From Myxococcales bacterium (GTDB taxonomy: Bacteria; Myxococcota_A; Polyangia; Polyangiales; Houyiibacteriaceae): a stretch of DNA of 42,000 nt. The stretch is taken from positions 27,794 to 69,793 of the forward strand of contig JAHEEE010000012.1 in NCBI GenBank assembly GCA_024640845.1, read 5' to 3'. A program made the translations under genes and the position numbers. The notes beneath the pieces were generated by a model. It worked only from the letters and a program-made list of their open reading frames with translations, made no database searches and was not told the origin of the DNA. Of this stretch, positions 2,469-8,598 are shown one piece after another (position 1 is the stretch's first letter; each line of letters starts with the position of its first letter).

Positions 2469-3356
2469 CTAGAGCTCTTCGGCAGGGAACGGCATCACCG
2501 ACTGAATCGAGCTCGCGCGTGTGAGCAGCATCAACAATCGGTCGACCCCGAGCGCGTTGCCGCCGCTCGCCGGCATTCCAAGCTCGAGCGCCTCGAGGAA
2601 CCGCTCGTCGATCGGGTAAACGGGCAGGCCGGCATCAATTCGGTGGGCGCGGTCTCGTTCGAAGCGCCTTCGCTGTTCAGCGGCGTCGGTTAGCTCACCA
2701 AAGCCGTTGCACAGCTCGACCCCTCGAAAGAACGCTTCAAAACGGTCTGCGGTGCCGTTGTCGTTCAACTTGGCCAACGAGGCCATCGACGCCGGCCATT
2801 CCGTGACGACGACGGGCCGCGCTTTTCCGAGCTGCGGTTGAACTGCCTCGGCCCAGGTCTGGAAGAAGCGGGCCTCGTCGGCCGGATCGATGATCTCACC
2901 GGCATGCTCGTCGAATGCTTCGTTCACCGTGATCCGGTCCCACGGCGAAGATAGCGAGCCCGCGTCGGCGCTTGCGAGCACGTCCGCAATGTGGGCGACG
3001 AGGCATTCGGTATCGCGGATCACATCATCGGAGGTACCCTGAGCCCGATACCATTCGAGCATCGTGAACTCGCGCTCGTGGTGACGACCGTGCTCCTCGG
3101 CTCGGTAGCTCCGACACAGCTGAAAGATCCGTTCTGCTCCGGCGCTCAACAGGCGCTTCATCTGGTACTCGGGGCTCGTGGCGAGCCAACCGACGGGGCT
3201 GCCTTTTGGGTCGCGTACCTCGAACGCGGATAGATGCACGTCGAGCCCGGGAGAGGGCACGATCGCCGGGGTCTCGACCTCGAGAAAATCGCGCTCCGAG
3301 AAGAACTGGCGGATTGCCTCCATGGCCTTGGCGCGCAGCCGCAGGACCTGGAGCAT
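2469..3356 (-). CDS. epmA: Elongation factor P--(R)-beta-lysine ligase EpmA
   Basis: EpmA (PoxA/GenX) is a class II lysyl-tRNA-synthetase paralogue without an anticodon-binding domain that attaches beta-lysine to EF-P. The 295-residue protein carries the catalytic core only: DFLEVETPAIVPSPG near residues 23-37, the motif 2 block FQLCRSYRAEE followed by EFTMLEWYRA, and motif 3 with GNALGVDRLLML at the C-terminus. Lack of an N-terminal OB domain separates it from LysS. It begins eight bases after the stop of efp and so is co-transcribed with its own substrate. The lysine 2,3-aminomutase EpmB that supplies beta-lysine is not in this window. The ATG at 3356 is used; family members are often about 30 residues longer, but no earlier start fits. 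Confidence 0.92.
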   Translation of the reverse strand: MLQVLRLRAKAMEAIRQFFSERDFLEVETPAIVPSPGLDVHLSAFEVRDPKGSPVGWLATSPEYQMKRLLSAGAERIFQLCRSYRAEEHGRHHEREFTMLEWYRAQGTSDDVIRDTECLVAHIADVLASADAGSLSSPWDRITVNEAFDEHAGEIIDPADEARFFQTWAEAVQPQLGKARPVVVTEWPASMASLAKLNDNGTADRFEAFFRGVELCNGFGELTDAAEQRRRFERDRAHRIDAGLPVYPIDERFLEALELGMPASGGNALGVDRLLMLLTRASSIQSVMPFPAEEL

Positions 3357-3364
3357 GCCGGCGC

Positions 3365-3928
3365 TCAGCCCTTGACGCGCTCGACGTACGACCCGGTGCG
3401 GGTGTCGATCTTCAGCTTGTCGCCGGCGTTGACGAAGAGCGGGACGTTGACCTGCAAGCCCGTCTCGAGCGTTGCGGGCTTCGTCGTGTTGCTGCTCGTG
3501 TCGCCCTTGAATCCTGGTTCGGTCTCCGTGACGACCAGCTCGACGAACGTAGGCGGAGTTACCCCGATGGGGCGGCCTTCGAAGAGCATGATATCGACCT
3601 CGGTGCCGTCCAACAGGTAGAGGGCGTTCTCGCCGAGCTGCTCGTTCGTAAGCGAGAGTTGCTCGTAGCTCTGGGTGTCCATGAAGACGCGCGTGTCGCC
3701 TTCCGGATAGAGGTACTGCATCGTGCGCTCTTCAGTGTCGGCCTTCTCGACCTTTTCACCGCTCTTGAAGGTTCGGTCGATCACGGCGCCCGTCATCATG
3801 TTCTTGATGCGGGTACGGATGAACGCTTGGCCTTTGCCGGGCTTCACGAACTGGTGGTCGACGACTGCGAAAGGGACGCCGTCGATGAGCATCTTGAAGC
3901 CTTTTTTGATGTCGCTGGTATCTGCCAT
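3365..3928 (-). CDS. efp: Translation elongation factor P
   Basis: EF-P enters ribosomes stalled on consecutive prolines and promotes peptide bond formation. The 187 residues comprise the KOW-like N-terminal domain and two OB domains. The loop that reaches the peptidyl transferase centre reads KPGKGQAF, placing the modifiable lysine at K32; this matches the adjacent EpmA ligase gene, so beta-lysylation is the expected modification. The C-terminal signature near GLQVNVPLFVNAGDKLKIDTRTG is present. A GAGAAG sequence precedes the ATG, and the upstream lipoprotein gene stops only three bases before it, so the three genes form one minus-strand operon. Confidence 0.97.
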   Translation of the reverse strand: MADTSDIKKGFKMLIDGVPFAVVDHQFVKPGKGQAFIRTRIKNMMTGAVIDRTFKSGEKVEKADTEERTMQYLYPEGDTRVFMDTQSYEQLSLTNEQLGENALYLLDGTEVDIMLFEGRPIGVTPPTFVELVVTETEPGFKGDTSSNTTKPATLETGLQVNVPLFVNAGDKLKIDTRTGSYVERVKG

Positions 3929-6351: not shown

Positions 6352-6684
6352 TCAACTCGTCTCCTCGATCACCCACTCGAGATACGCAGCACTCACGCGC
6401 TCCGCGGGCAGCGCCACGATCTCGGGAACCTCGTAGGGGTGGTTGGCCGTCAGCCAAGCAGCCACCGCATCAAACCGGTCCTTCCGGGTCTTGATCACGA
6501 GCTGAACCTCGGCGTCCGCTTCCACTTTTCCCTGCCATCGGTAGAAGGACCTCACTCCGGGAACCGCGTTCACGCAGGCGGCGAGGCGAGCGTCGACCAA
6601 GCCGCGGCCGAGCCTTTCAGCGGTGACGTCATCCGGTGCGGTGCACAGAATGACGAGGAGATCACTGTCGTCCTGGGCGCTCAA
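6352..6684 (-). CDS. cutA: Divalent cation tolerance protein CutA
   Basis: CutA1 is a small trimeric protein linked to copper tolerance in E. coli and widely conserved. The 110 residues show the family pattern: LVILCTAPDD at the start, LAACVNAVPGVRSFYRWQGKVE in the middle, and HPYEVPEIVALP followed by YLEWV at the end. Its length is normal. The start appears to be TTG at 6684, overlapping the TGA of the upstream amidotransferase-like gene by four bases (TTGA); no ATG or GTG lies nearby that would keep the LVILCTA strand. The two genes are therefore translationally coupled, although no functional link is known. Confidence 0.93.
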   Translation of the reverse strand: MSAQDDSDLLVILCTAPDDVTAERLGRGLVDARLAACVNAVPGVRSFYRWQGKVEADAEVQLVIKTRKDRFDAVAAWLTANHPYEVPEIVALPAERVSAAYLEWVIEETS

Positions 6685-7493
6685 AGCTCGTGGACGCTGA
6701 CATTGAGCCGACGGTCGATGATCGCGACCCCTCGCTCGGGGAGCGTCTGGTAGTCGACGGGCACTTCTTCGATGCCGCTGACGAGCATCGCATACCGCAG
6801 TTGGGTGCTCCCCGTCGGCGGACCCGTGTAGTCGTCCGGCGGGTCGTGAAGACCCTGGCGTTCGACGTACGTCATCGGCGTCCCGTGTCGGAGCGCGTAC
6901 ATCGAGCGTCCGTTGGTCAGAATGAAGCTGAGGCTGTTGTCGGCGCTCCCCACTTCGGCCGCAAGACGCTCAACCAAAGTCACCGCGGCGCTAATCGTTG
7001 GTAGGGCTTGCGCTTCGTTCAGGTCGGGGTTGTCGAGTTGACCCGCGTCGTGGAGCAGCGCCAGAATCGTGTGGAACAGGTATTCGCTGTCGGTCTGGCC
7101 GCGAATGTTTCGTCTCAAAAAATCGGGGATCATCTCGGCGAGATTCGCGCGCATTGCGTCGAAATGGCCGATGGTGCCTTCGTGTGCGAAGAGCCAACTT
7201 CGCATGCGGAACGGGTGAGCGTTCTCCGCGCGGAAGTCACCCACCGTTGGCTGTCGCAAGTGAAGGACGGCGCAGTCCGAACGAACGCCACCCGCAATGC
7301 TCTGCCAATCGACGAGCTCTCCAGCCCTCGTGGGACGCTTTTTGTGAAGGACCTCGTCGCCTGCGTAGAAGCCAATGCCCCATCCGCTTGCGCCCGCAGG
7401 CGCGGTCTCCTGACGAAGCACAGCACGCTCCTGATAGAGCGCGTCTCGCATCCGGTCGGCTCGATTCGCGACGTACCCGATGAGCCTACTCAT
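6681..7493 (-). CDS. Class II glutamine amidotransferase-like protein lacking the catalytic Cys
   Basis: The fold is that of YafJ/EgtC-type class II amidotransferases (Ntn hydrolases): an N-terminal MSRLIGY, then ASGWGIGFY, HLRQPTVG, ENAHPF, FAHEGTI and TDSEYLF in the family order. The length is 270 residues. Active members begin MC, with the Cys as N-terminal nucleophile after Met removal. Here codon 2 is AGT (Ser), and the oxyanion Asn of the HNG motif is Glu (HEG). Classical glutaminase activity is therefore unlikely, and the protein may be a structural or binding relative. The ATG at 7493 is chosen because GGTGGA lies five bases upstream; an ATG at 7505 adds four residues and has no ribosome site. 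It overlaps cutA. Confidence 0.85.
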   Translation of the reverse strand: MSRLIGYVANRADRMRDALYQERAVLRQETAPAGASGWGIGFYAGDEVLHKKRPTRAGELVDWQSIAGGVRSDCAVLHLRQPTVGDFRAENAHPFRMRSWLFAHEGTIGHFDAMRANLAEMIPDFLRRNIRGQTDSEYLFHTILALLHDAGQLDNPDLNEAQALPTISAAVTLVERLAAEVGSADNSLSFILTNGRSMYALRHGTPMTYVERQGLHDPPDDYTGPPTGSTQLRYAMLVSGIEEVPVDYQTLPERGVAIIDRRLNVSVHEL

Positions 7494-7635: not shown

Positions 7636-7704
7636 AGGGCCACACGTCGGTTGTGAGCGCACACGAAAAATGGGACCGTCGATGAGATTGTGGTAGCGAG
7701 TAGT

Positions 7705-8598
7705 ATGTCTACCGCCTTCGACGGCGCGTTGGATGATTACATTCAGCATCTGCGGGTGGAGCGGGGCCTCTCTCGCCACACCGTGGACGCTTACGCGGCC
7801 GATCTCGTCAAGCTTGGTGATTGGCTCGAGGCTGAGCGCGTCGTCCTAGACGAAGTGGATGAGACGTCGGTCGCGGGCTTCCTGGTGTCCCTATCTCAAC
7901 GGGGCTTGAGCGCGCGTACGCAGGCCAGGGCGCTGAGCTCGACTCGCGGGTTCTTCCGCTTTCTGGTGCAAGAGCAGCGACATCCTCACGATCCGACGGA
8001 GCTGCTCGAAGGACCGCGCATGTTGGCGAAGCTGCCCGACATTCTGAACCGCGACGAGGTGCTGCGATTGCTGCAGGCGCCAGCCGGCGAGAAGCCCAAT
8101 CGTGTGCGCGATCGTGCCATGTTGCACACGATGTACGCAGCGGGTCTACGGGTGAGCGAGCTCGTCAACCTCGACCTCGGGGACGTCAATCTCGAGGAGG
8201 GCTTCGTCGCGGTCCTCGGCAAAGGGAGCAAGCGCCGTATCGTTCCTGTGGGCGCGCACGCACGCGTCGCCATGGAAGAGTATCTCACGACGGTGAGAGG
8301 GAAGTGGGCTCGTCCCTCGAGTCGGGAATGCTTCGTCACGGCGCGGGGGAAGGCAATGACGCGTCAGGGGTTCTGGGCGATCGTCAAGAAGTACGCGCGC
8401 GCCGCCGGGATCACCAAGCCCATCTCCCCGCACAAGCTTCGTCATTCGTTCGCGACTCATCTCTTGTCAGGCGGTGCTGATCTGCGCTCCGTGCAAACGA
8501 TGCTGGGGCACGCCGACATTTCGACGACCCAGATCTACACGCACGTGACGAGCGAACACCTCCAAAAGATGCACGAGCGGTATCACCCCCGCGGGTAG
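7705..8598 (+). CDS. xerD: Tyrosine recombinase XerD
   Basis: XerD, with XerC, resolves chromosome dimers at dif during division. The 297-residue length nearly equals that of E. coli XerD (298). The N-terminal SAM-like DNA-binding domain spans about residues 1-95. The catalytic residues are R149 (GLRVSEL), K173 (GKGSK), H243 and R246 (HKLRHSFATHLL), H269 (LGHADISTTQ) and Y278 (IYTHV). The ending HLQKMHERYHPRG favours XerD over XerC or a phage integrase. ATG at 7705 gives the family length; GTG at 7690 is an alternative. No dif-like 28-mer is visible nearby. Confidence 0.93.
   Translation: MSTAFDGALDDYIQHLRVERGLSRHTVDAYAADLVKLGDWLEAERVVLDEVDETSVAGFLVSLSQRGLSARTQARALSSTRGFFRFLVQEQRHPHDPTELLEGPRMLAKLPDILNRDEVLRLLQAPAGEKPNRVRDRAMLHTMYAAGLRVSELVNLDLGDVNLEEGFVAVLGKGSKRRIVPVGAHARVAMEEYLTTVRGKWARPSSRECFVTARGKAMTRQGFWAIVKKYARAAGITKPISPHKLRHSFATHLLSGGADLRSVQTMLGHADISTTQIYTHVTSEHLQKMHERYHPRG

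Follow-up and report, generated by a model that had tools for sequence, protein, structure and literature searches.

Class II (Ntn-type) amidotransferases generally conserve an N-terminal catalytic Cys, and branches of the superfamily in which this residue is missing have been recognized. The glutaminase-like domains of beta-lactam synthetase and carbapenam synthetase are class II amidotransferase domains without the catalytic Cys, fused to an AsnB-type synthetase domain, whereas the protein described here stands alone. In E. coli PurF, replacement of the Cys by Ser or Ala abolishes glutamine use, and the Crenarchaeota have a Cys-less PurF paralogue, PurF', which occurs beside the active enzyme and carries Ala or Val at the Cys position (PMC3261824); Cys-less class II paralogues are thus already known in another branch of the superfamily. 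PurF' is an archaeal, PurF-type protein, in contrast to the one-domain, YafJ-type protein from Myxococcota-type bacteria studied in this work.

The nearest solved structures to this protein are 3mdn, EgtC (4zfj) and 1te5. With the YafJ-like/GATase_4 proteins (PF13230; PDB 3mdn, 1te5) it has in common full-length similarity, the G-W-G core, the HxR motif, and the motifs PF...W..AH.G and G.TDSE; unlike them, it lacks Cys2 and the oxyanion Asn and displays the family-specific residues L49, P54, R96 and R131. EgtC, the amidohydrolase of ergothioneine biosynthesis (TIGR03442; PDB 4zfj), belongs to the same superfamily (local match 3.9e-17), but the protein scores 62.4 bits against the equivalog cut-off of 218.65 and has no catalytic Cys. 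No description of the Cys-less family was found in the literature searched, the scope of which left out most subscription journals. What is new here, judging from the alignments, is a conserved, apparently dead class II amidotransferase of phylum-wide occurrence, in which the dead site has changed many times independently.

The gene and its superfamily ancestry

The window, i.e., the whole 42,000-nucleotide stretch of DNA that was analysed, carries the pseudo-class-II-amidotransferase gene at 6681..7493 on the minus strand (270 aa). A previous sequence-only reading had placed an amidotransferase reading frame there, the strand being unstated, and this was borne out by the open reading frame and its translation, the GATase_4 match and the same-genus orthologues. 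The ATG lies at 7493-7491 and the TGA stop ends at 6681; the protein begins MSRLIGY, its longer N-terminal sequence, translated from the minus strand, being MSRLIGYVANRADRMRD. Codon 2 (7488..7490, minus), which aligns to the Cys2 of the paralogues, is AGT and encodes Ser2 at the catalytic-Cys site, and codon 105 (7179..7181, minus) is GAA, encoding Glu105 at the oxyanion Asn position (FAH-E-G, within WLFAHEGTI). Both substitutions had been read correctly. The equivalents of the carboxylate-binding Arg (Arg80; 7254..7256, minus) and of the glutamine-binding Asp (Asp135, in TDSE; 7089..7091, minus) are present.

The exact start had been attributed to a good ribosome site. The start itself holds by comparison with relatives, among which the ATG and the next residues are conserved, and several from other genera display a GGAGG-like site before the same ATG, but the Shine-Dalgarno sequence of the window gene is only moderate (GGTGGAAGCAATG). 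The sole in-frame extension upstream of the ATG consists of four codons (MVEA) without Cys, leaving none upstream for processing to uncover; with the start conserved, an alternative start or a propeptide concealing a Cys was ruled out.

Class II ancestry, as previously proposed, is well supported. Pfam GATase_4 (PF13230) matches the protein above the cut-off (E=8.7e-20), GATase_6 matches at E=1.1e-9, and PDB 3mdn was matched at 7.6e-18 using the family profile. Furthermore, HHalign against the Cys-bearing paralogue family gave a probability of 100% over 263 columns, with Ser2 aligned to Cys2, and this full-length homology, together with the PF13230 match, places the protein by descent in the class II (Ntn-type) superfamily. 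The Ntn fold (alpha-beta-beta-alpha sandwich) is predicted by homology; an AlphaFold model built from 14 sequences was unusable (mean pLDDT 41.4).

Orthologues were found in 15/19 same-genus genomes, own genome included, at 77-100% identity, and 54/57 relatives displayed some match. Ser2 is constant within the genus, encoded by AGT in all 14 genes read at DNA level, whereas position 105 is Glu in 3/15 and Gln in 12/15. Hence Ser2 and Glu105 do not form a co-conserved pair, a candidate that was rejected on the genus and family alignments, and Glu105 is, as far as these alignments indicate, a local substitution. Pairwise dN/dS within the genus had a median of ~0.065, an approximate figure because dS was near saturation. 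The chance that a decaying gene, an assembly error or a wrong start conceals a Cys is accordingly negligible: the gene is intact across the genus with Ser2 throughout and a low dN/dS, the MVEA extension holds no Cys and the start is conserved. The sequence-only reading would have accepted decay or error if close relatives carried Cys2 and Asn, and no orthologue carries Cys2. The protein with Cys2 and HNG encoded elsewhere in the window's genome is a paralogue in its own right, not an orthologue.

Extent and conservation of the Cys-less family

Profile searches covered two overlapping genome sets, one of the class (240) and one of the phylum (187), and 40 further loci were read, yielding 104 usable distinct sequences, 94 of them Cys-less and 10 bearing Cys2 and HNG. 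In a tree computed without columns 1, 2 and 105, and for which no root was inferred, one branch divides the 94 Cys-less sequences from the 10 Cys2-bearing paralogues (support 97/81; present in 96% of bootstrap trees). The Cys-less sequences come from across the window's phylum, and the tree supports a subfamily that keeps the Cys-less state. As the tree is unrooted, the direction of change, namely loss of Cys, is taken from the general conservation of Cys in the superfamily. Viral contigs were also searched for relatives, and none was found.

Among 90 readable Cys-less relatives, residue 2 is Ser in 39, Ala in 23, Gly in 18, Thr in 5, Pro in 4 and Tyr in 1, and in none is it the N-terminal catalytic Cys of a functional enzyme; Ser predominates outside the window's order, and relatives at 50-57% identity carry Gly2 or Ala2. 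Position 105, which changes no fewer than 42 times on the tree, is occupied by Thr, Gln, Val, His, Asn, Ser, Ala, Glu and others; its entropy, at the 91st percentile, places it among the most variable columns, next to an invariant G106. The oxyanion Asn-Gly of a functional enzyme (HNG), which reads HEG in the window protein, has kept its Asn in 7/94 members. The glutamine-binding Arg and Asp (HxR, TDSE) are present in the window protein as Arg80 and Asp135, and are kept in 79/94 and 81/94 Cys-less members, respectively, being gone in some lineages; those that lost Arg80 or Asp135 as well include L135, L136, L142 and L157-L160.

Other positions are nearly fixed. L49, P54, P94, G106, G132 and E137 are invariant in the Cys-less group, and R96 and P123 each vary once; Arg96 (PFR; 7206..7208, minus), found in 93/94 Cys-less members, is mostly Gln in the Cys-bearing paralogues. 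L49, P54, R96 and P123, along with the frequent R98 and R131, are different or looser in those paralogues, in which Glu137, Gly106 and Gly132 are equally fixed.

The window's own genome encodes a second, distant homologue (L002; 31% identity) with canonical MCRLFGF, HNG and TDSE. Another GATase_4 protein of this genome (G000:C67, L169:436-2283, minus) is fused to a transglutaminase domain and displays an apparent Ser where Cys2 should align (MQQLNSDLLAVCYDSP), with HNG kept; its QQLNSDLLA start is identical in three same-genus relatives.

Genomic neighbourhood

A cutA homologue with a TTG start (6352..6684, minus; CutA1 E=2.2e-37) lies directly downstream, an adjacency found in part of the order, and the TGA stop of the gene overlaps the cutA start in TTGA (6681..6684, minus). 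This overlap, previously taken as a hint of a non-catalytic role, does exist, but it was seen only in the window and in one other species (L015), most same-genus species having a gap of ~13 nt, and elsewhere a lipoprotein gene often intervenes; as functional evidence it was discarded. On the other side, a divergent xerC/xerD-type tyrosine recombinase gene (7690..8598, plus; Phage_integrase 2.1e-49) represents conserved synteny only. In the window's order, the gene usually stands between this divergent gene and cutA, patatin, TPR, EF-P and class II tRNA-synthetase-type genes; in the window, the class II tRNA-synthetase-type gene, possibly EpmA-like, directly follows that of EF-P (2469-3356 and 3365-3928, both minus).

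Two further genes recur in the order. One encodes a protein of ~900 aa, weakly Omp85-like at its C-terminus (E=0.024), which divergently adjoins the gene in many genomes (L070:2876-5632, minus, and equivalents) and often stands between it and the xerC/D-type gene; it is absent from that position in the window's genus. The other encodes a ~200-aa lipoprotein with faint DUF4440/SnoaL-like similarity, which follows or overlaps the gene in many of the sampled order genomes outside the window's genus; this family is fast-evolving, with a conserved C-terminal end like PRIVGL (L070:6668-7333, plus; L074:8162-8818, plus; L077:6292-6891, minus; and equivalents). The lipoprotein was detected in none of the 7 genomes of the window's genus that were searched, which rules it out as an obligate partner. 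In other orders, an alpha/beta hydrolase gene (Hydrolase_4, 3e-60 to 2e-74) precedes the gene in the same direction: at 12 loci the gap is -4 to 243 bases, and at two more one gene lies between them; it does not adjoin the gene in the window's order and was likewise dismissed as a universal partner. No universal neighbour of the Cys-less gene was found among the loci compared.

Possible roles of the protein

Taken together, these analyses demonstrate, at the level of sequence, Cys loss, separation from the Cys-bearing paralogues by one supported branch, purifying selection and relaxed active-site positions. With homology kept and catalytic residues lost, this is the profile of a pseudoenzyme, and we consider it likely that the protein is an ancient non-catalytic paralogue of the YafJ/EgtC/GATase_4-type class II amidotransferases, retained for a role other than that of a glutaminase. 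An inactive standard glutaminase, as had been anticipated, would be the likely outcome of losing Cys2 and the oxyanion Asn. The essential Cys was probably lost long ago, yet the gene is intact across much of the phylum, and therefore the protein probably acts by binding some ligand or partner and not by splitting glutamine. The persistence of the Cys2/HNG paralogue L002 in the same genome speaks for this reading, as does the loss of Arg80 and Asp135 in some members, e.g., L135, L136 and L142. Against it count the retention of Arg80 and Asp135 in ~85% of members, as could be expected of an enzyme too, and the variable neighbours, none of them conserved across the whole family.

In a rival reading, Ser2 replaces Cys2 as the N-terminal nucleophile, and the protein would be an Ntn amidase or glutaminase of the Ser type; the presence of Arg80 and Asp135 in the window protein favours it. 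Known Ntn nucleophiles include Ser and Thr, and no other residue occurs at position 2 as often as Ser among the family members sampled, in which it predominates outside the window's order. However, the oxyanion Asn is lost in nearly all members, and the new nucleophile that had been offered as an option at Ser2 falls at a position where roughly half of the family has Gly, Ala or Pro, with Gly2 or Ala2 in relatives at 50-57% identity; these substitutions, along with the loss of glutamine use in E. coli PurF when its Cys is changed to Ser or Ala (PMC3261824), make such an enzyme highly improbable, and the alignment gives Ser2 no standing as a conserved nucleophile. Repurposing as an enzyme whose active site has moved to family-specific residues such as Arg96, Arg98 and Arg131 is unlikely as well. 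Several such polar residues are nearly invariant, and a small metabolic pathway could lie behind the alpha/beta-hydrolase gene found just upstream in many relatives from outside the window's order; nevertheless, Gly, Pro and Arg can be conserved for structural reasons, Glu137, Gly106 and Gly132 are just as fixed in the Cys-bearing paralogues, and the hydrolase gene does not adjoin in the window's order. With somewhat speculative intent and at low probability, a broader proposal may be drawn for the phylum-wide family, in which a conserved Arg-rich site that replaced the Cys/Asn machinery would have endowed the scaffold with a novel activity, or with a role in sensing that is linked to envelope or lipid genes, this link being drawn from the lipoprotein gene 3' of the gene in the window's order and the alpha/beta-hydrolase gene upstream elsewhere. 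It is also quite unlikely that the protein is a regulatory subunit forming a heteromer, as its dead member, with the Cys-bearing paralogue encoded in the same genome. In many of the order's sampled genomes, the Cys-less gene is accompanied by another, more distant homologue, carrying Cys2 in those read, and regulation of an active enzyme by a dead paralogue has general precedent (e.g., PMC5201418), but in the window's genome the two genes are on separate contigs, and a single match was all that many genomes gave, most of all those from other orders of the class.

Under the preferred pseudoenzyme reading, the nucleophilic Cys would have been lost in a single event that preceded the spread of the Cys-less group across the phylum, and the oxyanion Asn would afterwards have drifted freely, while the fold core and the family-specific residues (L49, P54, R96, R98, P123 and R131, with G106, G132 and E137) were held. 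The protein would hydrolyse no glutamine and would instead be a sensor or scaffold that binds another protein or, in the former active-site pocket with its mostly retained Arg80 and Asp135, a small ligand of anionic or amino-acid-like character; a pocket or surface for binding is what the conserved residues suggest.

In domain searches the members are labelled glutamine amidotransferases, although the whole family is without the catalytic Cys. The family, in which residues 2 and 105 have changed independently many times, constitutes a deep and well-sampled case (~90 sequences) of amidotransferase active-site decay while another function would be under selection, and R96, R98 and R131 provide defined residues on which the selected function may be tested.
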